A stretch of DNA of 64,000 nt from Arcobacter sp. EP1 (GCA_001655195.1 LPNY01000076.1:28968-92967); one strand, 5' to 3'. Positions 272 to 15,875 are shown, counted from the stretch's first letter. Numbers and translations: made by a program. The notes: generated by a model from the letters alone, not told the origin.

Positions 272-305
272 GGGTCAGTCTTTTATTTGATTATATAATT
301 TCAGA

Positions 306-322
306 ATGTAGTTAACATGTAG
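306..322. promoter_or_regulatory. Direct repeat ATGTAG, 11-nt period
   Basis: ATGTAG occurs at 306-311 and again at 317-322, one helical turn apart, 35-50 nt upstream of the start codon of the edge response regulator. OmpR-family regulators typically bind such direct repeats, so this may be its own operator. Function is inferred. Confidence 0.35.
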
Positions 323-341
323 AGTACGTTAACGTACTCTA
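320..341. repeat. Perfect 22-bp palindrome between two minus-strand genes
   Basis: The arms TAGAGTACGTT and AACGTACTCTA are exact reverse complements, and the palindrome ends 2 nt past the stop codon of the cytochrome c gene. No T-run follows on the minus strand, so it is a poor intrinsic terminator by itself. It could be an operator or a processing hairpin. Confidence 0.5.
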
Positions 342-343
342 TA

Positions 344-781
344 TTAGTTTTTCCCACCACGTTCTAACCAATACCCATAATATTTATCTCTCCAAAATGA
401 CTGAAAATATGCTATAGCAGAATCAATTTCATCATCAGTTAATACATCTTTAAAAGGAGGCATTTTCCCATCATATGATGCTCCACCATTTTTAATAATT
501 CTATGTAGTTGAGAATATGGATGATGCCAAGCATGTGCTTTATCATTTAGTGGAGGAGGAGGGTAGCTACCATCTGCTAAGCGTTTTTTCCAATCAATTG
601 TTTTTTCGGCTTGATATCCATGACACGATGCACAGTTATTAGCAAATACATCTTTGCCTTTAAGAACTTGTTCATCAGTATACCATCGAGGTTGCACATC
701 TTGATTACTCACAGCAAATAGACTTATGGCTAAAAATAGTAATGCAACTAATGACAAAGTAATTGTTTTTGTCGTATTCAT
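344..781 (-). CDS. Exported class I cytochrome c
   Basis: A 145-residue protein with an N-terminal hydrophobic signal/anchor (about residues 7-24) and one heme c site, C50-A-S-C53-H54. GKMPPF downstream offers the likely distal Met ligand. It should be a small periplasmic or membrane-tethered electron carrier. It is the last gene of a three-gene minus-strand unit with a DUF411 protein (9-nt gap) and a SHOCT membrane protein. The unit starts at a shared copper-island box at 1484-1501, so it is probably made under metal stress. The redox partner is unknown; the multicopper oxidase nearby is a candidate. Confidence 0.85.
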   Translation of the reverse strand: MNTTKTITLSLVALLFLAISLFAVSNQDVQPRWYTDEQVLKGKDVFANNCASCHGYQAEKTIDWKKRLADGSYPPPPLNDKAHAWHHPYSQLHRIIKNGGASYDGKMPPFKDVLTDDEIDSAIAYFQSFWRDKYYGYWLERGGKN

Positions 782-790
782 AATCTTCTC

Positions 791-1225
791 CTAGTGTTTT
801 TCATAAATTCCAGTTCTTCCATCATGGTTAATATATAAAATATTATAAGCTTGTTTCATATTTCCTTGTTCCATACCTGGACTTCCTATTGGCATGCCAG
901 GAACAGTAATTCCTTTGATATCTGGTTTTTCTGTTAGCATTTTTTTTACTGCAGAATAATCAACATGTCCAACTACTACATATCCATCAACAATTGCTGT
1001 ATGACAAGAAGCTGTGTTAGGAGTGATACCAATTTTTTCATTCACAAACATCACATTATCTACCATTTTAGTTGTTACATTAAAACCATTATCTTTCATA
1101 ATATCAACCCACTTTGTACAACATCCACAATAAGGAGACTTATAAACCGTCATATTTTTGCCTTCTATTGCAAATAGTGATGTTCCTAAAAGAACAACTC
1201 CTAATAATAATTTTTTAATTTGCAT
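791..1225 (-). CDS. DUF411 periplasmic metal-binding protein (CopG-like)
   Basis: A 144-residue protein with a signal peptide ending near residue 19 (SLFA). It carries the DUF411 pattern: a thioredoxin-like YKSPYCGCC motif (C33, C35, C36), TASCH (C74, H75) and H87, which together could hold copper. Members of this family are found with copper-resistance genes and bind copper through clustered cysteines. It sits between the cytochrome c and the SHOCT gene in one short operon. The exact role, whether copper buffering or redox conversion, is not settled by sequence. Confidence 0.85.
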   Translation of the reverse strand: MQIKKLLLGVVLLGTSLFAIEGKNMTVYKSPYCGCCTKWVDIMKDNGFNVTTKMVDNVMFVNEKIGITPNTASCHTAIVDGYVVVGHVDYSAVKKMLTEKPDIKGITVPGMPIGSPGMEQGNMKQAYNILYINHDGRTGIYEKH

Positions 1226-1237
1226 CTTGTTTCCTTT

Positions 1238-1447
1238 TTATTGTACGGTTTGTTTAAGTTCATCAAATTGTTCTTTTGAAATTTCACCCTTGGCTAAACG
1301 TTTTTTCAAAATATCTAATGCTGAATCTTTTTGTTCACAACTATTTGATTTAAATGCTGAGATAATTAAAAATACAATAATACCCCAAAAGATAATCATT
1401 CCTAAACCATGGAACATAGTCATATTCATACTCATATATTCATACAT
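1238..1447 (-). CDS. Small membrane protein with SHOCT domain
   Basis: A 69-residue protein and the first gene of the cytochrome c / DUF411 unit. One transmembrane segment spans about residues 12-32. The C-terminus, DILKKRLAKGEISKEQFDEL, is a textbook SHOCT motif. SHOCT proteins are short, often membrane-linked and usually of unknown function; in copper islands they commonly accompany efflux genes. A TAAGGAGTT ribosome binding site precedes the ATG, and the operator-like box at 1484-1501 lies upstream. Confidence 0.8.
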   Translation of the reverse strand: MYEYMSMNMTMFHGLGMIIFWGIIVFLIISAFKSNSCEQKDSALDILKKRLAKGEISKEQFDELKQTVQ

Positions 1448-1483
1448 ATTAACTCCTTAGTTTTTGAAAGTATACTCAGATAG

Positions 1484-1501
1484 TGTGCAGTTAGTGTGGA
1501 T
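1484..1501. promoter_or_regulatory. Copper-island direct-repeat box, site A
   Basis: The sequence TGTGCAGTTAGTGTGGAT repeats GTGnA with an 11-nt period. Nine nt separate it from the hexamer TATACT (minus strand, 1474-1469), so it replaces the -35 of the SHOCT-DUF411-cytochrome operon. It matches the boxes at 1948, 3817, 10384 and 12278. It is probably bound by the regulator at 2011-2673 (inference). Confidence 0.6.
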
Positions 1502-1568
1502 TAAAATCGAATCAAGTGTAGTTGTTATGACGTTTGGTTTTAAAAAAAAGAGAAAGTTAAAATACATA

Positions 1569-1591
1569 AAGGTTTGAGTAGTGCAAACCTT
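1569..1591 (-). terminator. Hairpin downstream of the Met/His-rich gene
   Basis: AAGGTTTG and CAAACCTT form a perfect 8-bp stem with a 7-nt loop, 25 nt past the stop codon at 1616. On the minus strand an AT-rich tract with a T8 run about 20 nt further on follows, so it is only a moderate terminator candidate. Confidence 0.45.
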
Positions 1592-1615
1592 CATATATTT
1601 CAGTTAGAAGGTTTA

Positions 1616-1903
1616 CTATTTAGCTCCACCACATTTTCCAGCGCCACATTTTCCTGCACCACATGCCATCTTAGAAGGTTTATTTCCAGATTTTTTCATC
1701 ATCATACCAGAATCATCCCCCATCTTCTCATCTTTATCCATTCTCATATCAGAATCTTCATCCATCATATGTTTAGGTTGTTGAGTAGTTTGATGCATGT
1801 TATTACTTTTTGATTTCATTCCATGTCCCATTTCACCAGCAAAAGATAGTGTTGTTAACATAGAAAGAGCAAGTAATATTTTTGCAATAAATTTCATGTT
1901 CAT
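1616..1903 (-). CDS. Secreted Met/His/Cys-rich protein, bufferin-like candidate
   Basis: A 95-residue protein with a clear signal peptide (about residues 1-22, SFA cleavage). The middle is packed with Met, His, Asp and Lys, including HMMDEDSDMRMDKDEKMG. The C-terminal tail repeats GAGKCG: ACGAGKCGAGKCGGAK with three Cys. Copper-chelating RiPPs called bufferins (HvfA type) have similar EGKCG repeats whose cysteines are modified by an MNIO (DUF692) enzyme. No MNIO or DUF2063 partner gene lies in this window, so modification is speculative. The gene has its own island box (1948-1965) and is divergent from the two-component genes. A periplasmic copper-binding role is likely; the bufferin link is a hypothesis. 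Confidence 0.75.
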   Translation of the reverse strand: MNMKFIAKILLALSMLTTLSFAGEMGHGMKSKSNNMHQTTQQPKHMMDEDSDMRMDKDEKMGDDSGMMMKKSGNKPSKMACGAGKCGAGKCGGAK

Positions 1904-1947
1904 TATGTCTCCTAAAGTTTAAAAATTGCCAAAGTTTAGCATATTTG

Positions 1948-1965
1948 TGTGTAGATTGTGTGGAG
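1948..1965. promoter_or_regulatory. Copper-island direct-repeat box, site B (divergent)
   Basis: TGTGTAGATTGTGTGGAG lies between the Met/His-rich gene and the response regulator gene. Leftwards, 9 nt separate it from TAAACT (1938-1933). Rightwards, it lies 21 nt upstream of TATAAT (1987-1992). One box could therefore serve both promoters, including autoregulation. Confidence 0.6.
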
Positions 1966-2010
1966 TTTAAAAGCCACGATTTATGATATAATTTTGCAAA
2001 GGAAAAATAT

Positions 2011-2673
2011 ATGAAGATTTTTTTAATGGAAGATGATTTAATGTTAAATGAGATCATTGAAGAGTATTTAAGCTCTAAAGGGTATCCCGTAACCACTGCT
2101 TATACAGGAGATGAGGCGGAGGAGAGATTATATTCAGAGGTTTTTGACTTACTATTATTAGATGTTAATGTTCCTGGTATTAATGGATTTGAGTTATTAA
2201 AAGAATTACGAAAGAGAGATATCCATACACCTGCAATTTTTATAACCTCTTTGGATATGGTTAATGATATTGAAAAAGGTTTTGAGTCTGGTTGTGATGA
2301 CTATATAAAAAAGCCTTTTGAGTTAAAAGAGCTAGATTTAAGAATTAAAAATATTAAGCGATTATTCAAAATTAATGAAAATGAAGTGCTGGATGAAGCA
2401 ACAAATATTATACTAGATAAGAAAAACCTACTTTTACGATTTAATGATAATGAAATTCATATTGCATTAAAAGAATTAGATGTGTTAGAGTATTTGATTA
2501 AGCATAAAAACAACCCAGTTAGTGTTGAAGAGTTATGTTCAAATATTTGGAGTTATGAGAGCTCCCCATCTGCTGCAACTATTAGAACGTATATTAAGAA
2601 CTTACGAAAAATTCTAGGAGAAGGTTATATATCAAATATTAGAGGAGTTGGTTATCGATTTAACAGCAAGTGA
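2011..2673 (+). CDS. OmpR-family response regulator (CusR/CopR-like)
   Basis: A 220-residue regulator with a receiver domain (about 1-115: acidic E7, D8, D9, phosphoacceptor D51, K in IKKPFE) and a winged-helix Trans_reg_C output domain (about 130-220, ending IRGVGYRF). It overlaps the sensor kinase gene downstream. GGAAAAAT precedes the ATG, and TATAAT lies at 1987-1992. Location between copper-binding, efflux and oxidase genes suggests it senses periplasmic copper or silver through the kinase. The five direct-repeat boxes with 11-nt period in this island fit the binding mode of this family. The metal specificity is inferred. Confidence 0.9.
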   Translation: MKIFLMEDDLMLNEIIEEYLSSKGYPVTTAYTGDEAEERLYSEVFDLLLLDVNVPGINGFELLKELRKRDIHTPAIFITSLDMVNDIEKGFESGCDDYIKKPFELKELDLRIKNIKRLFKINENEVLDEATNIILDKKNLLLRFNDNEIHIALKELDVLEYLIKHKNNPVSVEELCSNIWSYESSPSAATIRTYIKNLRKILGEGYISNIRGVGYRFNSK

Positions 2674-3805
2674 AAAAAGTACCTTTTTTAGATTTTTAGG
2701 TTTATATTTAGGTTCCTTATTTATATTGATGGTACTTATAGCATTTTTTTATTATCAAAATGAAAAGCGACTCTATTTTGATTTAACAAAATCTAATATG
2801 CAAAATATTGTTTCAGAAATATCTTCAAACATCATTTTTTCTCATATGTCAGGTAGTAAATTTGACACTTCAAATTTATTGAAAACAGAGAAGTATAAAC
2901 TCTCTTTCTATAATCAAAACAAAGAGAAGGTTTTTGGCAACTTAGATGATAAGATAGACTTTACAAAAAATCTTATTCAACATGAAGAGCATTTTGTACT
3001 TGTCGATCATTCACCTTTAGGACATTTGGGTATTTATCATATAGCCATAGAAGAAAATCTTTTTTTCAAACAAATAAAAGAGTTACAGTTTAATATCGTG
3101 ATATTTTTTATTACCATTTATTCTATTATTGCACTTGTTGGTTTCTATCTTGCAAAACTTTTTTTACAACCTATCAAAGAAGAAAGAAATAAATTAAACA
3201 ATTTTATCAAAGATACAACCCATGAACTTAATACTCCTATAAGTGCTATTCTAATGTCAACAGAGTCTACTAATTTAAATGAAAAACAATTGGAGAGAAT
3301 TAGACTAAGTGCTAAAAGAGTTTCTGAAATATATAAAGATTTAACTTACATTTTTTTACAGGAACACGAACAAAAAAGAGAAGTTAGTTCAATTGACTTA
3401 GAGAAATTAGTACTTGAACAACTAGACTACTTTGAACCTCTTGCAAATAAAAAAAGAATCAATATCGTCTCAAACATTGAGACTTTTAACTATGCTATTA
3501 AAAGAGATGATTTTATTCGACTATTTAACAACCTTGTGTCTAACGCTATTAAGTATAATAATATGGGTGGAAATATCTATATTACGCTTCGTTCTAATGG
3601 AGAACTCACTATTGAAGATACTGGTATTGGGATAGAGGAAGAGAAGCTCAAAGATATTTTTAAACGCTATTTCAGAGCAACAAGTGAACAAGGTGGTTTT
3701 GGGATAGGCTTAAATATCGTTCGACATATTTGTCAACGATATAATATCACTATTGATGTACACTCTATCATTAAAAAAGGAACGACCTTTTCTCTGAAAT
3801 TTTAA
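2648..3805 (+). CDS. Membrane sensor histidine kinase, partner of the OmpR-type regulator
   Basis: A 385-residue kinase with TM1 (about 14-33), a periplasmic sensor region (about 35-145) and TM2 (about 150-171). The HisKA box TTHELNTPIS has His192. The ATPase domain shows NAIKYNN, EDTGIGIEEE and GGFGIGL. The start is uncertain: the only in-frame candidate upstream of TM1 is TTG at 2648, which overlaps the regulator gene by 26 nt. An AGAGGAG directly abuts it, so translation is probably coupled. The periplasmic domain has no obvious metal motif. A copper or silver sensing role rests on neighbourhood. Confidence 0.88.
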   Translation: MVIDLTASEKSTFFRFLGLYLGSLFILMVLIAFFYYQNEKRLYFDLTKSNMQNIVSEISSNIIFSHMSGSKFDTSNLLKTEKYKLSFYNQNKEKVFGNLDDKIDFTKNLIQHEEHFVLVDHSPLGHLGIYHIAIEENLFFKQIKELQFNIVIFFITIYSIIALVGFYLAKLFLQPIKEERNKLNNFIKDTTHELNTPISAILMSTESTNLNEKQLERIRLSAKRVSEIYKDLTYIFLQEHEQKREVSSIDLEKLVLEQLDYFEPLANKKRINIVSNIETFNYAIKRDDFIRLFNNLVSNAIKYNNMGGNIYITLRSNGELTIEDTGIGIEEEKLKDIFKRYFRATSEQGGFGIGLNIVRHICQRYNITIDVHSIIKKGTTFSLKF

Positions 3806-3816
3806 GTGTGGATAAT

Positions 3817-3834
3817 CTCCACACTCTCTACACA
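3817..3834. promoter_or_regulatory. Copper-island direct-repeat box, site C, with overlapping dyad
   Basis: CTCCACACTCTCTACACA is the reverse complement of the box found at site B with two changes. Nine nt separate it from TACAAT (3844-3849) upstream of the YtkA-like/efflux operon. It also overlaps an inverted repeat, AGTGTGGA (3805-3812) and TCCACACT (3818-3825), which touches the kinase stop codon. Confidence 0.6.
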
Positions 3835-3874
3835 TAAACCTGCTACAATTTCTCAAATATTTCAAGGAGATAAA

Positions 3875-4258
3875 ATGAAAAATTTGATGAAAGCTGTATT
3901 CGCTTTATTTTTTACTGTTGGATTACTACAAGCAGAACCATTACTACAAGAAGGTAATAAAAATGGTTATGATGTAGCATTAAGTTCAGAAAAATCATTA
4001 GTTGTAGGAAGTAATGACATTTTTATTGCATTATCAAAAGATGGCGCTGCAGTTACTGATGCGAAAGTAAAAATTAAATTTTATATGCCAGAAATGCCAG
4101 GAATGCCATACATGGAATATGTTGGTAAAGGTAAACTAGTTAATGATAAATTTAAAACATTAATTAACTTTTCAATGAGTGGTACATGGCAGTATCAATT
4201 AAAATTTAAAACTCACGACGGAAAGATTCATAAAGTTAGAGGAAGCGTGAACTTATAA
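3875..4258 (+). CDS. YtkA/FixH-like periplasmic protein of the efflux operon
   Basis: A 127-residue protein. The start is set at the ATG preceded by AAGGAGA, not at an earlier in-frame ATG that lies in the operator region. A signal peptide (about 1-20, LLQA) is followed by a beta-sandwich pattern (DIFIALSKDGAAVTDAKVKI) and a Met-rich stretch, MPEMPGMPYMEY, resembling YtkA-like domains. In Campylobacterota and relatives such proteins often lead heavy-metal RND operons. The Met cluster could bind Cu(I). Its TAA overlaps the next ATG by one base, so it is co-translated with the outer membrane gene. Confidence 0.75.
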   Translation: MKNLMKAVFALFFTVGLLQAEPLLQEGNKNGYDVALSSEKSLVVGSNDIFIALSKDGAAVTDAKVKIKFYMPEMPGMPYMEYVGKGKLVNDKFKTLINFSMSGTWQYQLKFKTHDGKIHKVRGSVNL

Positions 4259-5454
4259 TGTTTAAAAATATCTTGTTCGTTACGTTTCTAACTGTTTCAT
4301 CAAGCTTTGCAATAAGTCTTGATGAGATGGTAGATAATGTACTCAATAAAAATCATGATTTAAAAAGTTTAGAGAAATCTATCGAGGTGGCTGATAAACA
4401 GATTAAAGTATCTAAAAATTGGCAAAATCCTGTTTTAACAATAGGAGCTAATGATATTCACTTTGATGACTCTTTTAAAAGAGATTTAGAGCCAATGCAA
4501 GCTCAATATATTGGTTTTTCACAAGTACTTCCAATGGGAGATAAGCTTGACATCAAAGAAGAGATAGCAAAAAAAGATAAAAGTATTGCTACACATCTAT
4601 TAGATGATAAGAAACTACAACTTAAATCAAAGATTTACGAATACGCTCATAACATTGTAATCTTAGAAAAAAAGTATGAATTATTAAATAAATATCAAAA
4701 GAATATAAAGAGTTTAGAAGAGTTAACCAATGCACTTTATGAAAATGGAAAAGCAAAGCAAACTGATATAATTAATGTTAAAATTGCTTACTCTAAAGTC
4801 TCATTAAAAAAACAAAATCTTAAAAATTTAATTAACAATTTATACTTAAAGCTTGAAGAAATTACTTATACAAAAGTATCTAATATTGAAGCTCCTCTTG
4901 GAATGAAAACATTAACGTTAAATACAATATTTGATAACCATCCAAAGGTGCAAGTAGTATCCCTAAAAAGTGAGAAGTTTAATGATATCTCACGATTAGA
5001 AATAGAAAAAAAGACTTCAGATATAAAGTTAAATGTTGCATACTTTCAACGAGATGATAAGTATAGAGATTATGCAAATATTTCTGTGAATATTCCTTTA
5101 GCAATCTATGGTACTGAAAGTGTAAATTCACTTAAAGCAAAACTCAAAGCAAAAGAGGTTGAAAGTAGCCTAATAAATCTAAAACAAAAATTTAAAACAA
5201 CAACACTGATGCTTCAAAATGATATGAATAATGCCATTGAAACCTATAGAATTATTGAAGAGACGATTATTCCTTTGAAAGAGGAAGTACAAAAAAATAT
5301 CGAAGCCTACAACAGTTTCAACCTAGTAAAGCCTCAAGATACAATTAACAATCTAAATGAGGTAATTGCCTACGAAATGATGCTTTTAGATGAGATTAAA
5401 AAGTACTTTACTTCATATTCAAAATCTATTTATTTTACTCAAGGAAAAAAATAA
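4258..5454 (+). CDS. TolC-family outer membrane efflux protein (CusC-type)
   Basis: A 398-residue protein with a signal peptide (about 1-19) and long alpha-helical hairpins typical of outer membrane factors. It is somewhat shorter than classical TolC. It overlaps the adaptor gene by one base (TAATG) and is followed by adaptor and inner membrane pump, so it should be the exit duct of a tripartite metal efflux complex. Assignment rests on fold character and operon context; TolC-family sequences are divergent. Confidence 0.85.
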   Translation: MFKNILFVTFLTVSSSFAISLDEMVDNVLNKNHDLKSLEKSIEVADKQIKVSKNWQNPVLTIGANDIHFDDSFKRDLEPMQAQYIGFSQVLPMGDKLDIKEEIAKKDKSIATHLLDDKKLQLKSKIYEYAHNIVILEKKYELLNKYQKNIKSLEELTNALYENGKAKQTDIINVKIAYSKVSLKKQNLKNLINNLYLKLEEITYTKVSNIEAPLGMKTLTLNTIFDNHPKVQVVSLKSEKFNDISRLEIEKKTSDIKLNVAYFQRDDKYRDYANISVNIPLAIYGTESVNSLKAKLKAKEVESSLINLKQKFKTTTLMLQNDMNNAIETYRIIEETIIPLKEEVQKNIEAYNSFNLVKPQDTINNLNEVIAYEMMLLDEIKKYFTSYSKSIYFTQGKK

Positions 5455-6467
5455 TGCGAAAACTTAGATTAATCGCACCACTCATGGGTGTGATGTTATT
5501 AACCACTCTTAATGCAAAAATCATAGAAGTTAACCAACTTTTTAATAAAACTGTTGTGAAGGTAAAACAAGAAAGTGTGGGAACTATTAAAAGTTTTTAT
5601 GGAAAAACACAACTCGATGAAACAAAAACTATTGATATTGTAACCCGATTTGATGGGTTTATTACTAAGTTGAATGCCGATAAAACTTATATGAGTGTTA
5701 AAAAAGGAGAAGCTCTTTTTTCTATTTATTCAGATAAGGTTCTTTCTATTCAAAAAGAGTTACAAGTTTCAAAAAATATTAATAAAAAACTTTATAAAAG
5801 TTCCGTTGATAAATTAGTTGCATTAGATATTAGAGGAACTGAACTTGAACGAATCAAAAAAGCACGTAAGATTATTAAAGATGTTACTGTTAAAGCTCCA
5901 ATGAATGCCATTGTTATGAAAAAGAATATTAATGATGGAAGTGCTGTCAAAAAGGGTAATCTCATTCTACAATTGGCAAATCTTGAAAAGCTTTGGTTTT
6001 TAGCTGATGTTTATCAAAAAGATCTCTCTTTTATCAAACTAGGTATGCCTGCAAAAATTTATCTTGATGGATTTAGCTCTCCTGTACAATCTAAGGTGGA
6101 TTATGTCTATCCTATAGTAGATGTGAAAACAAAAACAGTGAAAGTTAGATTTATATTAGATAACTCCAAGTTAAACTACTACCCAAATATGTTTGCTAAT
6201 GTAAAACTACAAAATAACAAGCGAACGATGCTAACTCTACCTAAAACAGCTGTTTTAAATAAAGGTAGTAAATATTACGTATTTAAACCAGTTTCCGACA
6301 GTGAATTTGAGCCTATAGAGGTTGAAGTAAACAGAATATCTTCGAATAAATATGAAATTATTGAAGGACTTCAAGGCAATGAAGAGGTTATCAATAATGC
6401 ACTGTTCTTACTTGATTCAGATGCAGTAACAAATGCACTTTACGACGAAGAAGATGAAGATTGGTAG
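5454..6467 (+). CDS. cusB: Periplasmic adaptor of heavy-metal RND efflux (CusB-type)
   Basis: A 337-residue membrane-fusion protein with signal peptide (about 1-21). The barrel-sandwich halves are visible: DGFITKLNADKTYMSVKKGE and later VKAPMNAIVMKKNINDGSAVKKG. They flank a short helical hairpin, and a beta-barrel domain follows. It links the pump to the outer membrane duct. It starts one base inside the preceding gene and is 44 nt from the pump. There is no obvious Met-rich N-terminal extension beyond the signal, so metal handoff residues are not evident. Confidence 0.85.
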   Translation: MRKLRLIAPLMGVMLLTTLNAKIIEVNQLFNKTVVKVKQESVGTIKSFYGKTQLDETKTIDIVTRFDGFITKLNADKTYMSVKKGEALFSIYSDKVLSIQKELQVSKNINKKLYKSSVDKLVALDIRGTELERIKKARKIIKDVTVKAPMNAIVMKKNINDGSAVKKGNLILQLANLEKLWFLADVYQKDLSFIKLGMPAKIYLDGFSSPVQSKVDYVYPIVDVKTKTVKVRFILDNSKLNYYPNMFANVKLQNNKRTMLTLPKTAVLNKGSKYYVFKPVSDSEFEPIEVEVNRISSNKYEIIEGLQGNEEVINNALFLLDSDAVTNALYDEEDEDW

Positions 6468-6511
6468 GATTATCTTACTAATCATTCAGACAAAAACTTT
6501 TAGGAAAATTT

Positions 6512-9500
6512 ATGGTTGAAAATATAATCTCATACAGTATAAAGAATAAATTTTTAGTTTTATTTACAATTATTGTACTAACTATTGGCTCATTTTGGGC
6601 AGTAAAAAATACCAGTTTGGATGCACTGCCTGATTTATCGCCACCACAGGTAATTGTACAGGTTAAATGGGCAGGACAAAGTCCTAAAACCATTGAAGAA
6701 CAAGTTTCATATCCACTCATCTCAAATTTAATGAGTTTGCCAAATATTGAAACGGTTAGAGCGATGAGTTCATTTCAAAATGCGCTTATCTATATTATTT
6801 TTAAAGATGGAACTGATCTTTATGATTCTAGGAATCGTATTTTAGAACAACTTTCACAACTTCAAGGTACTTTTCCTGCTGGAGCTAATGTAGCTATTGG
6901 TCCAGATGCAACTGGTGTTGGTTGGGCATATGAGTACGCTTTAAAGTCAGATACGAAGTCATTAGATGAATTACGAACGTTACAAGACTATTACTATAAA
7001 TATGCCTTGTTAGGGGTTGATGGTGTAAGTGAGATAGCTTCTATTGGTGGTTTTGTAAGAAACTATGAAATTACATTAAATCAAGATAAACTTGTGCAAT
7101 ATAACCTCTCAATTAATGAAATAAAAAAAGCGTTAACAAAAAATAATGATGACAAAGGTGGTCGTATTATTTTGGAAAATGGCTTTGAGCACATGATTCA
7201 AGCCCGTGGTTATTTAAAAAGTGTTGGAGATATTGAAAATATTACTGTAAAAACTGTTGATTCTATTCCGTTACAAATTAAAGATATTGCCGAAGTTAAT
7301 ATCACATCAACTAACCGAAGAGGTATGACAGATTTAAATGGTGAAGGTGAAGTTGTTGGAGGTATTGTAGTTGTTCGTTATGGGGAAAACCCATATGCTG
7401 TTATTAAAGCAGTTAAAGAGAAGATTAAAACACTTAAGGTCGAAGGAGTAGAGGTTGTAGAGACTTATGATAGAACTTCATTAATTGATAAAGCGATTGA
7501 TACACTGAAAAATACGCTAATTGAAGAGTCAATTATTGTTATGGTGATTACAGCACTATTCTTATTTCACTTTAGAAGTGCACTTATTATAATCATCACT
7601 TTACCAATTACTGTGTTGTTGACTTTTCTTCTAATGAAAGCAGTTGGAATGGGTTCAAATATTATGAGTTTAGGAGGTATTGCTATTGCAATTGGTGCTA
7701 TGGTAGATGCTACTATTGTTATGGTTGAAAATGCGCATAAACACCTCCAAAATAGAGAAAATATTTCAAATGAAGAGCGTGTAAAAATCATTATTAAAGC
7801 TGCCAAACAGGTGGGACGACCTATCTTTTTTGCACTTATTTTAGTGGTTGTTTCATTTTTACCAATTTTTGCACTAACAGGTCAAGAGGGACGTCTCTTT
7901 ACTCCACTAGCCTTTACAAAGTCATTTGCCATGATTTCAGGTGCAATTTTATCTATTACTGTTGTTCCAATTCTAATGGTATTTTTTATTCGGGGTAAAA
8001 TCTTGAGTGAAGATAAAAACTTACTCAACCGTTTTTTTGTAAAATTATACTCTCCTTTTTTAAAGCTTTCTTTGAAGTTTAGATACCTTGTCGTATTTAT
8101 GTTTTTAGGAACAATGATTGCGTCATACCCCGTATATAAAAAACTCAATTGGGAATTTATGCCCATGATGAATGAGCAAACTTTTATGTATATGCCTGTA
8201 ACTCCCTATGGATTAGGAATTGATTTATCTAAAGAATTAACTCAAAAGACGGATAAAATCTTAAAATCTTTCCCTGAGGTAGATACTGTTTTTGGTAAAG
8301 CAGGTCGAGCTGATAGTGCCACTGATCCAGCGCCACTTGCAATGATTGAAACTATTGTGACGTTTAAACCAGAGAGCCAATGGCGTGAGGGAATGACTTA
8401 TAAAAAATTGATGCATGAAATGGATCAAAAACTTCAAGTTGCAGGTCTTATTAACTCTTGGACATATCCAATTCGAGGAAGAATTGATATGCTTTTAACC
8501 GGTATTAGAACCCCTTTAGGAATTAAACTTTATGGTAATGACCATCATCAATTAGAAAAAACTGCTGGAGAGATTGAACAAAAACTTAAAAAGTTTGATA
8601 AAACATTATCAGTTTCAACAGACAAAATTAATTCTGGGTATTATTTAAATGTAAATGTTAAAGAGCAGATGTTAGCTCGTTATGGAATTACAAAAAATGA
8701 TGTTTTATCAACCATTTCTTTAGGTGTAGCGGGAGCTAAAGTTTCTACATTTTTAGATGGTTTAGAGAGATACCCAATTTCACTACGTTTTGAAACAACA
8801 CAAAGAGAAGATATCTTAAGTCTTCAGAACCTACAAGTAAAAACAAAACTAGGGTTTCAGCCATTAGAAATGTTTGCCAATTTAACCTATGAAGAAGGAC
8901 CTTCTGTTATTAAATCAGAGAAAGCATTAAATGTAAACTTTATTTATATTACACCAAAAAATGGAATTTCTGCAAAACAGTATAAAGATGAGGCAAAGCA
9001 ACTTCTTAAAGAGATTAAATTACCAACTGGATACTATTTTGAGTGGGCAGGACAAAGTGAATATTTAGAGTCAGCGATGGAGAGATTAACCTATATTATT
9101 CCACTGACATTTGTAATTATTTTTATTTTAATCTATTTTGCACTAAGAAATATTACTTACACCTCTATTATTTTCTTTACGTTGCCATTTGCATTAACTG
9201 GAGGAATATTTTATTTAGAGTTTTTAAACTTTAATATTTCTATTGCCGTTATAGTTGGTTTCTTGGCTTTACTTGGTGTTGCTGCTGAAACATCTATTGT
9301 AATGCTTGTTTATTTACATGAGGCAATGCTTGAGCTTAATGATAAGTGTACCGAACCTGAAAAGGAACATATTTTCCATGCCATTTATAAAGGGGCAGTA
9401 TTAAGACTTAGACCTAAACTTATGACACTATTTGCTATTTTAGGAGGTCTTATACCTATTATGTATATTAATGGTGTTGGTAGTGAAGTAATGCAAAGAA

Positions 9501-9628
9501 TAGCTGCACCAATGATTGGAGGAATGATTTCATCAGCATTCCTGACCCTCATCGTTATTCCTTCAATATTCTATATTTTAGCTATTCGTCAAAAAGGAAA
9601 GATGGCTCAGTGTGATCTTACACACTAA
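6512..9628 (+). CDS. cusA: Heavy-metal RND efflux pump (CusA/CzcA family)
   Basis: A 1038-residue inner membrane pump of the expected length. Family signatures include SLDALPDLSPPQVIVQ near the N-terminus, the proton-relay helix GIAIAIGAMVDATIVMVENA around residue 400, and the C-terminal TM block (GVAAETSIVMLVYLHEA). It would expel Cu(I)/Ag(I), or other divalent metals, using the proton gradient, with the upstream adaptor and duct. Copper is favoured by context: DUF411, multicopper oxidase and CopA. Strong terminator follows at 9633. Confidence 0.92.
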   Translation: MVENIISYSIKNKFLVLFTIIVLTIGSFWAVKNTSLDALPDLSPPQVIVQVKWAGQSPKTIEEQVSYPLISNLMSLPNIETVRAMSSFQNALIYIIFKDGTDLYDSRNRILEQLSQLQGTFPAGANVAIGPDATGVGWAYEYALKSDTKSLDELRTLQDYYYKYALLGVDGVSEIASIGGFVRNYEITLNQDKLVQYNLSINEIKKALTKNNDDKGGRIILENGFEHMIQARGYLKSVGDIENITVKTVDSIPLQIKDIAEVNITSTNRRGMTDLNGEGEVVGGIVVVRYGENPYAVIKAVKEKIKTLKVEGVEVVETYDRTSLIDKAIDTLKNTLIEESIIVMVITALFLFHFRSALIIIITLPITVLLTFLLMKAVGMGSNIMSLGGIAIAIGAMVDATIVMVENAHKHLQNRENISNEERVKIIIKAAKQVGRPIFFALILVVVSFLPIFALTGQEGRLFTPLAFTKSFAMISGAILSITVVPILMVFFIRGKILSEDKNLLNRFFVKLYSPFLKLSLKFRYLVVFMFLGTMIASYPVYKKLNWEFMPMMNEQTFMYMPVTPYGLGIDLSKELTQKTDKILKSFPEVDTVFGKAGRADSATDPAPLAMIETIVTFKPESQWREGMTYKKLMHEMDQKLQVAGLINSWTYPIRGRIDMLLTGIRTPLGIKLYGNDHHQLEKTAGEIEQKLKKFDKTLSVSTDKINSGYYLNVNVKEQMLARYGITKNDVLSTISLGVAGAKVSTFLDGLERYPISLRFETTQREDILSLQNLQVKTKLGFQPLEMFANLTYEEGPSVIKSEKALNVNFIYITPKNGISAKQYKDEAKQLLKEIKLPTGYYFEWAGQSEYLESAMERLTYIIPLTFVIIFILIYFALRNITYTSIIFFTLPFALTGGIFYLEFLNFNISIAVIVGFLALLGVAAETSIVMLVYLHEAMLELNDKCTEPEKEHIFHAIYKGAVLRLRPKLMTLFAILGGLIPIMYINGVGSEVMQRIAAPMIGGMISSAFLTLIVIPSIFYILAIRQKGKMAQCDLTH

Positions 9629-9632
9629 TTAA

Positions 9633-9666
9633 GAAAGAGAGATTCCCTCTCTTTCAAATTTTTTAT
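9633..9666 (+). terminator. Rho-independent terminator after the efflux operon
   Basis: GAAAGAGAG and CTCTCTTTC form a perfect 9-bp stem with loop ATTCC, followed by AAATTTTTT. It lies 5 nt past the pump stop codon. The rest of the gap to 9839 is AT-rich with nothing recognisable. Confidence 0.85.
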
Positions 9667-9839
9667 CTACATTCTTTTTGATATTATTAGAACTTATTTC
9701 CTCTGAAATAATTTTAAAAGATAATGCTTATAAGAAAAAGTGGATTTCACTACAAGTATTCATTAATATTTAAAATAAATGATATCAAATGCATATAAGA
9801 AAAGAAAGTATGAATACAGAAGTAAGAGAACTGATTCCC

Positions 9840-10340
9840 TTACTCTTCTAGTTTTTTAAGGGACTCATCAACCCATTTAATGATTTGCTCTTTTTCTACA
9901 TCATCTAATCGGGAATCCCAATGGGCAATCACATATCTTAATGGAGGCATAGTATTATTGATTGTTGATTTTCGAATACTCTTTAAATCATTAATGGGAG
10001 TATCATGGGAAATAAATGGAAAATTATTACTCATATTTATATGACTTTTAGCCTCTTTAATATCATGATCAATAAGTTGTTTAACCCCAGGAATCTTGTA
10101 GTATAAAGGGTAATTTGGCGTATTTGAGTGACAATTAAAACACTTATTCTCAAAAATAGGTTTAATATTTTTTAAATAACTTTGGTTGATAGGTTCATAG
10201 ATATTTCGTTTCACCTCTTGAACGACGACTTTTTTAGGTTTTACTGTTTCTTTCTTTTTATCAGTATGTACTTCATTACCATGCGCTAATAGTAGACTTG
10301 GTAGTAGCAATGTTGCTGTTAATATTGTAAATGATTTCAT
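9840..10340 (-). CDS. Periplasmic heme-binding domain protein (single CxxCH)
   Basis: A 166-residue protein with signal peptide (about 1-19, LLLAHG). It has a Lys/Val-rich linker and one heme site C67-F-N-C70-H71 in IFENKCFNCHSN, followed by NTMPPLRYVIAHWDSRL. This matches the family of haem-binding domain proteins rather than a classical cytochrome c fold. The Met in TMPP may be the sixth ligand. It is a single gene with a ribosome site AAGGAG and an island-type box at 10384-10401. It probably receives or passes electrons in copper detoxification, but the partner is unknown. Confidence 0.8.
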   Translation of the reverse strand: MKSFTILTATLLLPSLLLAHGNEVHTDKKKETVKPKKVVVQEVKRNIYEPINQSYLKNIKPIFENKCFNCHSNTPNYPLYYKIPGVKQLIDHDIKEAKSHINMSNNFPFISHDTPINDLKSIRKSTINNTMPPLRYVIAHWDSRLDDVEKEQIIKWVDESLKKLEE

Positions 10341-10383
10341 TACTTACTCCTTAAAATTAATTTTGTTATAAAATAGATGCTTT

Positions 10384-10401
10384 CTACACACATTATCCAC
10401 G
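10384..10401. promoter_or_regulatory. Copper-island box, site E (inverted orientation)
   Basis: Read on the minus strand, CGTGGATAATGTGTGTAG matches 13 of 18 positions of site B. Eight nt separate it from TATTTT (10375-10370) upstream of the heme-binding gene. Its orientation relative to the gene is opposite to that of the other boxes, so this is the weakest member. Confidence 0.4.
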
Positions 10402-10438
10402 CTAATTTCATATAATACTTTAAGATTTTTTCATTCTA

Positions 10439-10466
10439 AAGAGAGTATATCTCCTTTTACTCTCTT
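10439..10466. terminator. Hairpin downstream of the multicopper oxidase gene
   Basis: AAGAGAGTA and TACTCTCTT form a perfect 9-bp stem with a 10-nt loop, 17 nt past the oxidase stop codon. No clear T-run follows on the minus strand, so terminator function is tentative. Confidence 0.4.
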
Positions 10467-10482
10467 CTCCTTTCATAAGTCT

Positions 10483-11925
10483 TCAAGAGTGCACTTGAAG
10501 ACTTTCTTTTTTGCTTTTCAAAACTGTAAACTGACCCATCATACCTGCATCTTCATGCTCTAGGATATGACAATGGTACATATAGGGGTACTCTTTTGTT
10601 GCTTCATAATCAAACTGTATTGCAAGTTCCACAGTCTCATTTCCATAAACAAAAATAGTATCTTTTAGACCTGTTTCATTTAAATAAGGTTTTTTACCAT
10701 TTCGGGATAAGACTTTAAAACTACATCCATGTATATGGAAAGGGTGTGCCATGTGTGTTGGATTAATGATTCTCCAAACTTCAGATTCTCCCAAAATCAC
10801 CTCTTCATCAATACGTTTCATATCCATTTGCTTTTTATTAATAGCTAACCATCCTGGTCTTACATCTAATGTAAATTCTCTTAATTGAGTAAAATTATCT
10901 TCTTGATATTCTGTTATAGTGGTTAGTTTCTTAGGTAGTCTAAAATCTTCTGCTTCTTCATTTTTTACATTTATTTGTAGAAGTGGTTTATTACTTAAGT
11001 TATCACCAAAATAAAGGGTTTTCCCCTTTGCATCAGTAAAATCAACTAAAACTTCTGCACGTTCACCAGGACTTAATATAAGTGTTTTCATTTTAACTGG
11101 TTTAGGAAGAAAACTTGAATCACCTGCTATTTGATAGAATTCACGGTAATCATTAAACATAAACTTATAAACCCTTGCATTGGAGCCGTTTAATAACCTT
11201 AATCGTATTGTCTTTGCACCAACTTCTAAATAAGGATCAATAACACCATTAATTAACGAGAAATTTCCTGTTACTCCCATCATAACATCATGCATTGTCT
11301 GTTTATAAATAAATTGTCCATCCTGAGAAAAACGTCTATCCTGAAAGACTAAAGGAATATCATCAACTCCATACTCTTTAGGTATCGAAAGGTTTCTTGA
11401 ATCTTCATCATCAATAATAAATAGTCCAGCAATTCCCATAAATACTTGCCTTCCTGTAGCTTCATGGGTATGAGGATGATACCAACATAAAGATGATCTT
11501 TGGTTAATTTTGTATTGTGTACTCCACGTATCATTAGGTTTAATAGAGCGATTGGGTCCACCATCATTAACTCCTGGAACTTTCAGACCATGCCAATGAA
11601 TAACCGTCTCTTCTTGAAGTGCATTTTTTACATTTATTTTTATCGTATCATTTTTAGAAATACGTATTGTTGGACCTAGAAAATCACCATTGACTCCATA
11701 GGTATTGGTTTGAGACCCATTTAAAAAATCAACCTTACCTTGTTGTACATTTAAATTAAACTCTTTAATACCACTTTCTAAAATATTTGGTTTTAAAATT
11801 GGAGGGATAGCTAACTTTTTAGAGAAGGATTTAAAAACCGTAATCTCTTTATCTATTTTTTTTGCATCTAACAGTGTTGTAAATGAGCTTAGTAAAGCAA
11901 GTTTAACGAATGTTCTTCTTTCCAT
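10483..11925 (-). CDS. Tat-exported multicopper oxidase (CueO/CopA type)
   Basis: A 480-residue three-cupredoxin oxidase. The N-terminus ERRTFVKL is a twin-arginine signal. All copper ligand motifs are present in order: HWHG, WYHPHTH, HPFHIHG, and HCHILEHEDAGMM with the T1 Met. It is expected to oxidise Cu(I) to less toxic Cu(II) in the periplasm, reducing oxygen. It lacks the long Met-rich insert of E. coli CueO. It is transcribed after a small cytochrome c with a 16-nt gap, probably as one unit, which suggests electron exchange between them. Confidence 0.92.
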   Translation of the reverse strand: MERRTFVKLALLSSFTTLLDAKKIDKEITVFKSFSKKLAIPPILKPNILESGIKEFNLNVQQGKVDFLNGSQTNTYGVNGDFLGPTIRISKNDTIKINVKNALQEETVIHWHGLKVPGVNDGGPNRSIKPNDTWSTQYKINQRSSLCWYHPHTHEATGRQVFMGIAGLFIIDDEDSRNLSIPKEYGVDDIPLVFQDRRFSQDGQFIYKQTMHDVMMGVTGNFSLINGVIDPYLEVGAKTIRLRLLNGSNARVYKFMFNDYREFYQIAGDSSFLPKPVKMKTLILSPGERAEVLVDFTDAKGKTLYFGDNLSNKPLLQINVKNEEAEDFRLPKKLTTITEYQEDNFTQLREFTLDVRPGWLAINKKQMDMKRIDEEVILGESEVWRIINPTHMAHPFHIHGCSFKVLSRNGKKPYLNETGLKDTIFVYGNETVELAIQFDYEATKEYPYMYHCHILEHEDAGMMGQFTVLKSKKESLQVHS

Positions 11926-11941
11926 AGTTATCCTTTAAATA

Positions 11942-12238
11942 CTATAGACTTTTAATATATTGTGATAATAGAGGTATTTTGTCGTTTGGAATATTTTTCA
12001 TTTGTTGTTGCATAATAAAACCATACCCATATTCATCGATTTTTCCCTCTTTATAAAGCTTTAATTTGAGCACTAATACTTCATAAGGCAGCTCTTTTAA
12101 AGCAGGGACTCTGTTCTCAAACATTTTTTCAGCCTTAAATCCATGACAAAACTTACATGATGCATAAAGGTTTTCACCCTCATTTTGAGCAAAAAGAAAT
12201 GTTAACAATAATAGTTGTATCGTAATATGTCTTATCAT
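11942..12238 (-). CDS. Small exported cytochrome c upstream of the multicopper oxidase
   Basis: A 98-residue protein with signal peptide (about 1-17, LLTFLFA). It has one heme motif C28-K-F-C31-H32 in YASCKFCHGFKAEK and a likely Met ligand in IMQQQMKNIP. The pattern is that of a c553-type carrier. It is the first gene of the unit with the multicopper oxidase and is preceded by an island box at 12278-12295. Cytochrome/oxidase pairing suggests the cytochrome feeds or drains electrons, but direction cannot be read from sequence. Confidence 0.85.
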   Translation of the reverse strand: MIRHITIQLLLLTFLFAQNEGENLYASCKFCHGFKAEKMFENRVPALKELPYEVLVLKLKLYKEGKIDEYGYGFIMQQQMKNIPNDKIPLLSQYIKSL

Positions 12239-12277
12239 AAGTTCACCCTTTTTATTTCTACATTATGACATAACTTA

Positions 12278-12295
12278 TGTGGAGTCAGCGTGTAC
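12278..12295. promoter_or_regulatory. Copper-island direct-repeat box, site D
   Basis: TGTGGAGTCAGCGTGTAC keeps GTGnA twice at 11-nt period and matches site B at 11 of 18 positions. Ten nt separate it from CATAAT (minus strand, 12267-12262) in front of the cytochrome/oxidase unit. It has the same orientation as sites A and B. Confidence 0.5.
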
Positions 12296-12308
12296 TTGAT
12301 ATTCATTT

Positions 12309-12461
12309 TCTTTTAGTGAACTCAATACACAAGAACAAACTATTGATGAGAAGAGTGTATGTCATCATGATAAATACGAAGAGTTAAATGGTAAACATCA
12401 TAAATATGTAAAAGAGTACAATGTTCAAAAAAACAACTCTATGAAGAATCTAACATATTAG
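12309..12461 (+). pseudogene. Possible remnant of a His-rich coding sequence
   Basis: One frame is open for about 50 codons up to TAG at 12459-12461 and encodes SVCHHDKYEELNGKHHKYVKEY, a His/Lys-rich stretch. It has no plausible start codon or ribosome site and is cut off upstream by a stop. It may be the tail of a lost metal-binding protein or chance. Low confidence. Confidence 0.2.
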
Positions 12462-12490
12462 TTGACAAATTCTTATACATATGATAATAT
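12462..12490 (+). promoter_or_regulatory. Promoter of the copZ-arsR-copA operon
   Basis: A consensus -35 TTGACA (12462-12467) is followed after 17 nt by TAATAT (12485-12490). The -10 lies in the middle of the palindrome at 12478-12499, so a bound repressor would block polymerase directly. Confidence 0.75.
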
Positions 12491-12499
12491 TATCATATG
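12478..12499. promoter_or_regulatory. Perfect 22-bp palindromic operator, probably for the ArsR-type repressor
   Basis: The half CATATGATAAT is exactly mirrored by ATTATCATATG. Size and AT-rich dyad fit SmtB/ArsR-type operators, and the repressor gene lies in the same operon. Binding is inferred. Confidence 0.7.
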
Positions 12500-12526
12500 A
12501 TAAAATATTCATATAAAGGACATTCG

Positions 12527-12733
12527 ATGAAAAAGACATATCAAAGTGCAAATATTGCTTGTGGAAGTTGTGCAAATTTAATCAAAGTCTCTTTAGAAGA
12601 CACTTATGGAGAAATTGAAGTTAATCTTGACTCTAACCCAAGAGAAGTGACTGTTGAGATTAATAGTGATGAACAAGAAATCGAATTCATAAAAGAGATG
12701 GCTGAACTTGGCTTTGAGGTAGTGAAGAACTAA
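12527..12733 (+). CDS. copZ: Small HMA-domain metallochaperone (CopZ-like)
   Basis: A 68-residue single-domain protein. The start is placed at the ATG 6 nt after AAAGGA; an earlier in-frame ATG at 12497 overlaps the operator. The metal loop is A11-C12-G-S-C15 with ferredoxin-like HMA pattern (GEIEVNLDSNPREVTVEI). The usual Met before the first Cys of MxCxxC is replaced by Ala, a small deviation. It should shuttle Cu(I) to the ATPase encoded two genes on. It is separated by one base from the repressor gene. Confidence 0.82.
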   Translation: MKKTYQSANIACGSCANLIKVSLEDTYGEIEVNLDSNPREVTVEINSDEQEIEFIKEMAELGFEVVKN

Positions 12734-12734
12734 T

Positions 12735-13106
12735 ATGAAAAATCAACAAAAACTCATACGTTCATGTTGTGATGGAGTAAGCTTTTTAGAGGATATTCAA
12801 AAAAATTTACCCAAATCTCAGACGTTAACAGAAATATCAAATGTTTTTAAAGCATTAAGTGATCCAATGCGAGTTAAGATTTTATATGCTCTCATAGATT
12901 ATGAAATTTGCGTAGGAGAAATGGCAAATATTCTAGAACTACCTCAATCACACGTATCACATCAGTTAAGGATTTTAAGAAGGTATGGTATTGTTGATTA
13001 TGAAAAAGATAAAAAAATGTCTTTTTACTATATAAAAGATACCTATATTAAAATTCTGTTAACTACACTTTTAAGTGAAAAAGAAGGACAAAATGAAAAC
13101 AGATAA
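12735..13106 (+). CDS. ArsR/SmtB-family metal-responsive repressor
   Basis: A 123-residue winged-helix protein with the ArsR core (FKALSDPMRVKILYAL) and recognition helix SHVSHQLRILRRYG. Candidate metal thiolates are C11 and C12 at the N-terminus (RSCCDG) and C59 in YEICVGEMA. This resembles CadC/CmtR-like sensors more than SmtB. It probably represses its own operon through the palindrome at 12478-12499 and releases on metal binding. The gene overlaps the ATPase gene by 14 nt. Cu(I) is the likely inducer given the ATPase, but Cd/Zn/Pb cannot be excluded. Confidence 0.88.
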   Translation: MKNQQKLIRSCCDGVSFLEDIQKNLPKSQTLTEISNVFKALSDPMRVKILYALIDYEICVGEMANILELPQSHVSHQLRILRRYGIVDYEKDKKMSFYYIKDTYIKILLTTLLSEKEGQNENR

Positions 13107-15276
13107 AATCAATTTAAATATCTCTGGCATGACTTGTGTAAATTGCTCTAATGGAATTGAAAAGTTTTTAAATAGACAAAAAGGGGTACTAAAAGCTAAA
13201 GTAAGCTTTGCCTCAAATGAGGGTGAATTTGAAATTGATAAAAAACTCTATTCAAAAGATAAACTTATTGAAAATATTGAGAAACTTGGATTTAAAGTTG
13301 AAGAAGATATCGAAGCATTAGAGGCTGAACAGCAAAAAAGTTTTCTGAAACTAAAAAAATATTTTATAACATCTATGAGTATAACTATACTCATCTTTAT
13401 TTTCGCCTTTTCAAATCTGGTAGATGCATCAATAAAGGGATACTTTATATTTTTATTAGCCTCCATTGTACAATTCTTTTGCGGAGCAAGATTCTATAAA
13501 CTCTCCTTTCAGGCAGTAAGTCATAAAAACTATGATATGAATGTTTTAGTTGCTTTAGGCACAAGTGCTGCTTATTTCTATTCAAGTTTTGTTCTGTTCT
13601 TTCCTAACTTATTTCCAGATTATTTACGATTTATGTATTTCGACGGAGCAGCAGTGATTATAACCTTTATGCTTCTTGGTAAATATTTAGAAGAGAACTC
13701 AAAACAAAAAGCAAGTGATTATCTAAAAAAACTAATGAATCTAGCCCCTGAGTATGCAAATTTACTCAACAAGAACAATGAGATTGAAACAGTTTTAGCA
13801 AGTACACTTAAAATAGATGACCAAATATTAGTCAAAACAGGTGAAAAAATACCTGCTGATGGAGAAATTATTTCAGGTGGTGCTGATATTGATACTTCCA
13901 TGATTACAGGTGAGTCTTTACCCGTATATAAAAAAGTTAATGATGAAGTATTATCAGGAACACTCAATACAAATGGCATTATTACTATTAAAGTACTAAA
14001 GACTTCAAAAGATACAACCCTTTCAAAGATTATTACACTTTTAAAATCTGCACAAAGTAAACAAATTCCAATTAGTCGGTTTGCAGATAAAATTGCTAAT
14101 ATCTTTGTTCCTACTGTAATAGTTATTTCTATATTAACTTTTATTATATGGGGAGTTTTTTTGGGAGATTTTCAAAGTGCTATTATTGCTAGTATTAGTG
14201 TACTTATTATCTCTTGTCCTTGTGCCCTTGGTCTTGCTACCCCTATTGCTATTGTAAGCTCAGTAAGTAGAGGAGCAAAAGAGGGAATCTTAATTAAAAA
14301 CCCAGAGATTTTAGAGAAAATAAAAGAGATAGAGTATGCAGTATTTGATAAAACAGGAACACTAACAAAAGGAAATATCTCAGTTTGTGCCACAAATATT
14401 GATGATAGCTACTTTAAAGTAATTGGTTCTATTGAGAAGTATAGTGAACACCCTATATCTAAAGCCATTGTTTCATTTATAGAGAATAAAAGTATTGTTT
14501 GTAACGATATGATTACTGATATAGATATCATTCCCGGTCATGGAATAAAAGCTATTTTTGAAAATCAAGAATACTTACTAGGAAATCAAAAGCTTTTAAA
14601 AGACCATCATGCAACTATTTCAAAAGAGCATCTAGATTTTTATGAACAAGAGGCTAATAAATCAAATGGAGTTATTTTAGTGGCAGTCAATAAAAAAAGT
14701 ATTGGTTCTTTTTCATTAGAAGATGAACTTAAAACTGACGCACTTGATACAATAAATTCATTAAAGCAACTAAATATTAAACCCGTACTTCTTACTGGAG
14801 ATAATAAAACTACAGCGAATATCGTTGCTAAAAAATTAGGTATAGAAGAAGTTTACGCACAAGTAGTTCCTACACAAAAATATGAGGTAATTAGAACGTT
14901 ACAAGAAAACTCAAAAGTGATGTTTATTGGAGATGGAATCAATGATGCCCCATCCATCAAACAAGCAGATATTGGAATTACTTTAAACTCTGGTTCAGAT
15001 ATTAGTAAAGATGCAGGAGATATCGTTTTAATTAATAATCAATTGAACTCCATTATAAAAAGTATAAACTTGTCTGTAGAAACAATGAAAATAGTAAAAC
15101 AAAATCTCTTTTGGGCATTTGCCTATAATACGCTAGGTATTCCTATGGCAGCAGGAGTTTTGTATCCTTTCTTTGGAATTATGTTAACACCAATGTATGC
15201 AGGAATTGCAATGAGTTTTAGTTCAGTGACTGTTGTTGTGAATTCTTTAAGACTTAAAATTAAAAGGTTGAAGTAG
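13093..15276 (+). CDS. copA: Copper-exporting P1B-type ATPase
   Basis: A 727-residue P-type ATPase. The start is at the ATG after AAGAAGGA; a GTG 18 nt upstream is less likely. It has one N-terminal HMA domain (GMTC15VNC18), the membrane CPC motif (375-377, ISCPCALGLATP), phosphorylated Asp419 in DKTGTLTKG, an EHPIS dipeptide region, and the GDGINDAP hinge. CPC plus GMTCxxC marks Cu(I)/Ag(I) export to the periplasm. It is the last gene of the copZ-arsR-copA operon. Confidence 0.95.
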   Translation: MKTDKINLNISGMTCVNCSNGIEKFLNRQKGVLKAKVSFASNEGEFEIDKKLYSKDKLIENIEKLGFKVEEDIEALEAEQQKSFLKLKKYFITSMSITILIFIFAFSNLVDASIKGYFIFLLASIVQFFCGARFYKLSFQAVSHKNYDMNVLVALGTSAAYFYSSFVLFFPNLFPDYLRFMYFDGAAVIITFMLLGKYLEENSKQKASDYLKKLMNLAPEYANLLNKNNEIETVLASTLKIDDQILVKTGEKIPADGEIISGGADIDTSMITGESLPVYKKVNDEVLSGTLNTNGIITIKVLKTSKDTTLSKIITLLKSAQSKQIPISRFADKIANIFVPTVIVISILTFIIWGVFLGDFQSAIIASISVLIISCPCALGLATPIAIVSSVSRGAKEGILIKNPEILEKIKEIEYAVFDKTGTLTKGNISVCATNIDDSYFKVIGSIEKYSEHPISKAIVSFIENKSIVCNDMITDIDIIPGHGIKAIFENQEYLLGNQKLLKDHHATISKEHLDFYEQEANKSNGVILVAVNKKSIGSFSLEDELKTDALDTINSLKQLNIKPVLLTGDNKTTANIVAKKLGIEEVYAQVVPTQKYEVIRTLQENSKVMFIGDGINDAPSIKQADIGITLNSGSDISKDAGDIVLINNQLNSIIKSINLSVETMKIVKQNLFWAFAYNTLGIPMAAGVLYPFFGIMLTPMYAGIAMSFSSVTVVVNSLRLKIKRLK

Positions 15277-15320
15277 GTTTTCTTTAACTAACTATGACTT
15301 TTTTATAAATCATAAACTTT

Positions 15321-15543: not shown

Positions 15544-15571
15544 ATATATTTAAAGAAGCGTATCGAGTAGG

Positions 15572-15832: not shown

Positions 15833-15875
15833 ATTGTTTCTCCTGCTGAATAGTAATAACATTCCGTCACATAAG

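Follow-up and report, generated by a model that had tools for sequence, protein, structure and literature searches.

Direct-repeat boxes in the copper-island promoters of Arcobacter sp. EP1 are probable operators of the response regulator CrdR

A 64-kb stretch (the window) of the 3.0-Mb genome of Arcobacter sp. EP1 (Arcobacteraceae genome G000, whose relatives include Arcobacter, Aliarcobacter, Poseidonibacter and others) contains an island of copper genes, in which five boxes share a short direct repeat. An earlier reading of the DNA (the original prediction) had placed these boxes at 1484, 1948, 3817 (reverse), 12278 and 10384; all five were found there, and we keep these numbers as their names. 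The island comprises:

344-1447, minus strand: SHOCT gene (1238-1447), DUF411 gene and cytochrome c gene
1485-1500, minus strand: box TCCACACTAACTGCAC, -10 hexamer TATACT at 1469-1474, upstream of the SHOCT, DUF411 and cytochrome c genes
1616-1903, minus strand: gene of a Met/His/Cys-rich secreted protein, C-terminal end CGAGKCGAGKCGG, no Pfam match
1949-1964, minus strand: box TCCACACAATCTACAC, -10 hexamer TAAACT at 1933-1938, upstream of the Met/His/Cys-rich gene
2011-2673, plus strand: CrdR, OmpR-family response regulator with receiver and winged helix (Pfam Response_reg, Trans_reg_C)
2648-3805, plus strand: CrdS, histidine kinase (Pfam HisKA, HATPase_c)
3818-3833, plus strand: box TCCACACTCTCTACAC, -10 hexamer TACAAT at 3844-3849, upstream of crdA-crdB-czcB-czcA
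3875-4258, plus strand: CrdA (YtkA-like domain), first gene of the efflux operon
4258-9628, plus strand: efflux genes crdB, czcB and czcA
10385-10400, plus strand: weaker box TACACACATTATCCAC, -10 hexamer TATAAT at 10411-10416 (plus), directed away from the heme gene
10419-10512, plus strand: putative small RNA with two hairpins (z -4.5), UCUCCUUU in loop and linker, and a terminator (10477-10504) with a T-run
10483-12238, minus strand: cytochrome c (11942-12238) and multicopper oxidase (10483-11925) genes
12279-12294, minus strand: weaker box TACACGCTGACTCCAC, hexamer CATAAT at 12262-12267, 11 nt off, upstream of the cytochrome c and multicopper oxidase genes

Each box consists of two half-sites, TnCAC-N6-TnCAC, which form an 11-bp direct repeat and are followed by a spacer and a -10 hexamer. 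The spacer between core and hexamer is 10 nt in four boxes and 11 nt in the 12278 box; it is thus more fixed than the predicted range of 8-10 nt. TATACT, TAAACT, TACAAT and CATAAT had been correctly picked as hexamers. TATTTT, proposed as the -10 element of the 10384 box, lies on the side of the box that has no -10 peak (see below) and was discarded. This box, oriented as the other four are, instead faces TATAAT at exactly +10. As predicted, four boxes are alike in orientation to their gene, and the 10384 box alone is inverted relative to the heme gene. A direct repeat with a period of one turn (~11 bp), present in the five boxes and in relatives, and a fixed position over the place of the -35 element, upstream of the -10 hexamer (a single peak at +10, in one orientation), are the marks of a class II site of the OmpR/PhoB type. 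The repeat geometry, the single peak and the one orientation support the earlier proposal that an OmpR-type direct repeat here replaces the -35 element. In the crdA promoter (3805-3825) the first half-site also lies within a perfect inverted repeat, AGTGTGGA-N5-TCCACACT, which contains a perfect TTATCCACA as well.

Genome-wide scans were done as pattern searches, and a matrix was applied to the window and to selected stretches. Across the 3.0-Mb genome the bare core, GTGnA-N6-GTGnA, was matched 52 times and its reversed pattern 54 times; the core is therefore not enriched genome-wide, and its use as a genome-wide predictor was dropped. Equal density of matches elsewhere, by which the original prediction was to be judged, is thus seen for the bare core, but not for the core with a -10 hexamer at +10 or for the fuller consensus. 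Five of the 52 core matches cluster in the island's 10.8 kb (Poisson P ~1e-6, post hoc). On the CAC side, TAnnnT stands exactly at +10 in 12 of the 16 intergenic core matches (P ~1e-12), against a background rate of ~0.055 per position seen at other offsets, and it still does so in 8 of 12 (P ~3e-8) when four island sites are removed. No -10 peak was found on the GTG side of the core matches of this genome, and the 36 genic core matches had no -10 signal at any offset. The same single +10 peak appeared in relatives, in 15/18 sites of Arcobacteraceae and 46/59 of Sulfurovum-type loci, for which P values are not literal because related sequences lack independence. In three independent sets, then, the peak is limited to the CAC side and to intergenic sites.

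A matrix built from the crdA promoters of relatives, with the genome's own sequence excluded, ranked the five boxes 1-5 in the window (27.7, 25.5, 25.3, 17.8 and 17.7). The sixth-best score was 14.7 and the top score in five shuffled windows 16.4, slightly below the scores of the 12278 and 10384 boxes. Allowing one mismatch to core plus -10 in the own genome proved too loose (85 matches versus 70 in the control) and was rejected. Within the family, 64 of 65 distinct crdA upstream regions bear the box (at most three mismatches to core plus -10): 19 are perfect and 30 have one mismatch; where there are two or three mismatches, the -10 hexamer is mostly 11 nt off. Of the shuffled sequences, 0.4% came as close as one mismatch and 2.3% as close as two. 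The consensus of the crdA-type box is TVCACAcnnnCTVCACA. Its strict form with a -10 hexamer was matched 51 times across 104 genomes of the family and 111 times across 299 Campylobacterales genomes (totals counted from result tables), and the reversed control had 0 matches in either set. In another family, f10, crdA was found in two members only, and both have TCCACAAATCTTGCAC-N10-TATACT between crdR and crdA; the orthologue of the cytochrome-oxidase operon in one relative (G094) has TCCATATTCCTTCCAC-N10-CATAAT in the same place as the 12278 box. The box is real and general across Campylobacterales, a well-supported operator of a known regulator kind.

Boxes stand at the promoters of the SHOCT-DUF411-cytochrome genes, the Met/His-rich gene, crdA-crdB-czcBA and the cytochrome-multicopper oxidase genes, and the single regulon of the original prediction keeps these members, whereas membership of the heme gene and of crdRS is not supported. 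A further target in the same genome is a YceI gene (C76:118706), followed by a gene for a GSCGAGKCGGD-repeat peptide. At this locus (L311:3266-4152) the box lies 44 bp upstream of YceI, and the secreted peptide encoded next is bufferin-like; nearby, on the minus strand, is a truncated czcB-like open reading frame of 121 aa (L311:2197-2562), perhaps a remnant of a second crd operon. Elsewhere in the genome a one-mismatch box, TTAACATAAACTACAC-N10-TAAAAT, lies 27 bp before the gene of a secreted redoxin/thioredoxin-like protein (L310:1732-2311; C38:71731). In relatives the box-driven genes include crdA, DUF411, SHOCT, YceI, and a bufferin-like peptide with an MNIO enzyme, as well as DsbB-like and DsbA-like proteins, a P-type ATPase and a multicopper oxidase; Pfam backs DsbB, thioredoxin, YceI, SHOCT, YtkA and MbnB_TglH_ChrH, while the ATPase and the oxidase were read from sequence only. 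YceI, peptide and MNIO enzyme stand together there. In several relatives the strict box precedes DsbB-like or DsbA-like genes (L292, L294, L299-L302, L306-L308), which suggests that disulfide formation may be under copper control in them. The genome's own MNIO operon (C168:172729) had no matrix match above 9 nearby and was dropped as a target. It consists of the MNIO enzyme (172729-173508), a further gene and a DoxX-like gene (L363:1174-3424) without a crdA-type box, and a GKCG-repeat peptide upstream of it was read from an antisense open reading frame. What is directly established is where the sites lie, how they are built and oriented, how they are conserved and which genes adjoin them.

The most likely regulator of the boxes is the response regulator at 2011-2673. 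By Pfam, it is a receiver plus OmpR-type winged-helix protein with an adjacent histidine kinase, and the pair, crdRS, adjoins crdA and the boxes; gene order and the box before crdA, here and in relatives, suggest that the crdA-crdB-czcB-czcA operon is under its control. This assignment is supported by the copper genes that lie behind the boxes both in this genome and in relatives: crdA, DUF411, SHOCT, multicopper oxidase, and the bufferin-like peptide together with its enzyme. A recognition helix region, TIRTYIKNLRK, is common to the regulators of box-bearing loci and differs in the other OmpR-type regulators of this genome. It is nearly the same in four CrdR paralogues of the genome, 44-49% identical to CrdR (C23:28576-29238, C23:25408-26061, C142:309204 and C68:97631). 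The shared helix region therefore supports the regulator clade well, and CrdR as its single member less so. The two-component genes had themselves been predicted to belong to the regulon; however, the 1948 box is directed to the divergent Met/His gene and the other side of the boxes has no -10 peak, so that autoregulation of crdRS is unsupported.

We conclude that the boxes are probably the operator sites of CrdR acting as a copper-responsive OmpR-family regulator, and we infer its binding, activation by it, copper as the signal and the small RNAs. Excess periplasmic copper would activate CrdS; phosphorylated CrdR would then bind both TnCAC half-sites in a head-to-tail arrangement on one helix face, where a -35 element would otherwise lie, and, in a PhoB-like manner, recruit RNA polymerase to the -10 hexamer 10 nt away. 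This would switch on the SHOCT-DUF411-cytochrome c genes, the Met/His/Cys-rich protein, crdAB-czcBA and the cytochrome-multicopper oxidase genes, as well as the operon of YceI and the bufferin-like peptide outside the island; one or two small RNAs may also belong to the set. Several points weigh against this interpretation. In this genome the bare core is no commoner than background, the 12278 and 10384 boxes are weaker, the former with its 11-nt spacer, and the sequence does not fix the binder, because the four paralogues have nearly the same recognition helix.

The last point leads to an alternative that we consider unlikely: that the boxes are real for this regulator clade, and some or all of those in the island are read by one or more CrdR paralogues, singly or jointly. 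Besides the near match of the recognition helices, two of the paralogues are encoded within 6 kb of the island, and variant boxes of the same geometry adjoin paralogues, for example two copies of TCCACGTTACTTCCAT-N10-TATAAT around C23:27604 and TCCACAATCATTTCAC-N10-TATACT next to the C142 pair. These paralogue boxes, however, deviate in N6 and in the flanks, and it is the crdA-type box that accompanies crdRS-crdA loci family-wide. The C23 locus (C23:25399-29238; L050:4400-8239), whose end is window 1-271, encodes a porin and two CrdR paralogues, along with two small secreted proteins whose promoters have the identical variant box TCCACGTTACTTCCAT-N10-TATAAT; part of one regulator is N in the sequence. 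Another variant, TTCACAATnnTTTCAC-N10-TAnnnT, recurs before a ~105-aa gene behind a CrdRS-like pair (L080-L129, L317:1846-4370), and a similar site in the own genome precedes a cytochrome c gene; this variant is perhaps the operator of a CrdR paralogue.

The second alternative concerns the 10384 box, which the original prediction had assigned to the heme gene. On that account the heme-binding gene would be served by the box despite its inversion, and no small RNA would exist. The box does lie 45 bp before the gene, a distance resembling that of other targets, and the small-RNA candidate lacks conservation in relatives. But a -10 peak was found nowhere on the heme-gene side of the boxes, and the matrix detects this box on the plus strand only, with TATAAT exactly at +10 and a terminator following. 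Moreover, in two relatives (G066 and G094) the heme gene lies immediately behind the oxidase, without a promoter region between them, where a gap of 143 bp is found here. Because of the wrong orientation of the box and this gene order, the heme gene is not supported as its target; the assignment is in all likelihood wrong, and the account as a whole is unlikely.

The unit that the box does face (10419-10512, ~94 nt) has the features of a small RNA gene: box and TATAAT, no open reading frame (a start codon was not seen) and a terminator-like site. Rfam gave nothing relevant in window 1-16000, and the candidate had no convincing match among 60 relatives, the only second copy being within its own genome. 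This copy, 75% identical to window 10425-10512, lies at the 3' end of an OprD-type porin gene (L050:6471-6559; C23:27470-27558) and likewise has two hairpins and a T-run. A second box of this kind, TACACACTCACTACAT-N10-TATAAT at C76:117122 (matrix score 21.5), goes with a second non-coding unit (L311:1506-1654; C76 ~117005-117153, minus strand), composed of a U-rich leader, a hairpin, UUCUCCUUU and a terminator hairpin (fold z -6.1), for which no convincing conservation was found in relatives. In both units UUCUCCUUU lies between hairpin and terminator; with 18 occurrences in 331 kb of this genome's DNA, the 9-mer is not rare by itself. Both units may plausibly be copper-induced small RNAs. 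CrdR may directly drive at least two small regulatory RNAs here (10419-10512 and C76 ~117010-117110), whose UCUCCUUU in loop or linker could pair with Shine-Dalgarno sequences. Under copper stress selected mRNAs, such as those of copper proteins, would then be translated less, at the same time as CrdR turns on efflux, oxidation and peptide chelators; we regard this as possible but doubtful.

It is very improbable that the boxes are chance repeats in AT-rich intergenic DNA, spotted after the fact. The parity of the bare core with its reversed control would fit that view, but the strict form (51 and 111 matches versus none), the conservation at crdA and the matrix ranks 1-5 contradict it; it is already refuted for the 1484, 1948 and 3817 boxes, and least excluded for 12278 and 10384. 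The least credible idea, that the half-sites are DnaA boxes (TTATnCACA) and not response-regulator sites, draws on the fact that a DnaA box has TnCACA as its right-hand portion and on the perfect TTATCCACA that adjoins the crdA box on the opposite strand (3807-3815), but it is effectively refuted, since TTA precedes 0/60 of either crdA half-site, and it leaves the fixed -10 spacing and the copper-gene targets unexplained.

The reading of the boxes as CrdR operators agrees with what is known of Helicobacter pylori, where CrdRS (HP1365/HP1364) activates crdAB and czcAB with copper (PMC4557348, PMC9696931). The likeness lies in the gene set, a regulator-kinase pair with a YtkA-domain CrdA, CrdB, CzcB and CzcA; the present analysis supplies a consensus with its fixed spacing, and further targets. 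Our literature search found no DNA consensus for CrdR, and a 2023 paper on CrdRS (PMC9927306) mentions no motif, footprint, binding site or consensus. PhoB-type activators bind direct repeats in tandem, overlapping the place of the -35 element (PMC3348028, PMC2695467); winged helix and tandem repeats are as here, while repeat sequence, signal and targets differ. The OmpR-type regulator HP1043 (HsrA) of H. pylori, also from Campylobacterales, has direct repeats with centres 11 bp apart (PMC5253667), but its repeat is TTTAAG with a 5-bp spacer, and it is an orphan regulator of essential functions. CusR and CopR of Pseudomonas are copper two-component regulators of the OmpR family like CrdR, yet their sites, ATTCATnnATGTAAT (palindromic) and CTGACAn5GTAAT (PMC11195947), are unrelated in sequence. 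Bufferins are MNIO-modified copper-chelating peptides (PMC12452194). The box-driven secreted GKCG-repeat peptides beside a PF05114 enzyme in relatives resemble them, judged by motif and neighbouring enzyme; here, however, the motif is GSCGAGKCGGD, not EGKCG, the peptides have no Pfam match, and their modification is putative.

The interpretation given in the original prediction was right in the main and is partly supported. H. pylori has few two-component systems, CrdRS among them, and relatives of CrdRS occur throughout the order. With a base-level consensus that is valid order-wide, the copper regulon can be inspected directly in Campylobacterales genomes. The consensus already adds to this regulon YceI, DUF411, and bufferin-like chelating peptides along with the enzyme that modifies them, and, in relatives, the DsbA/DsbB disulfide system. 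Copper-controlled small RNAs become a testable idea.

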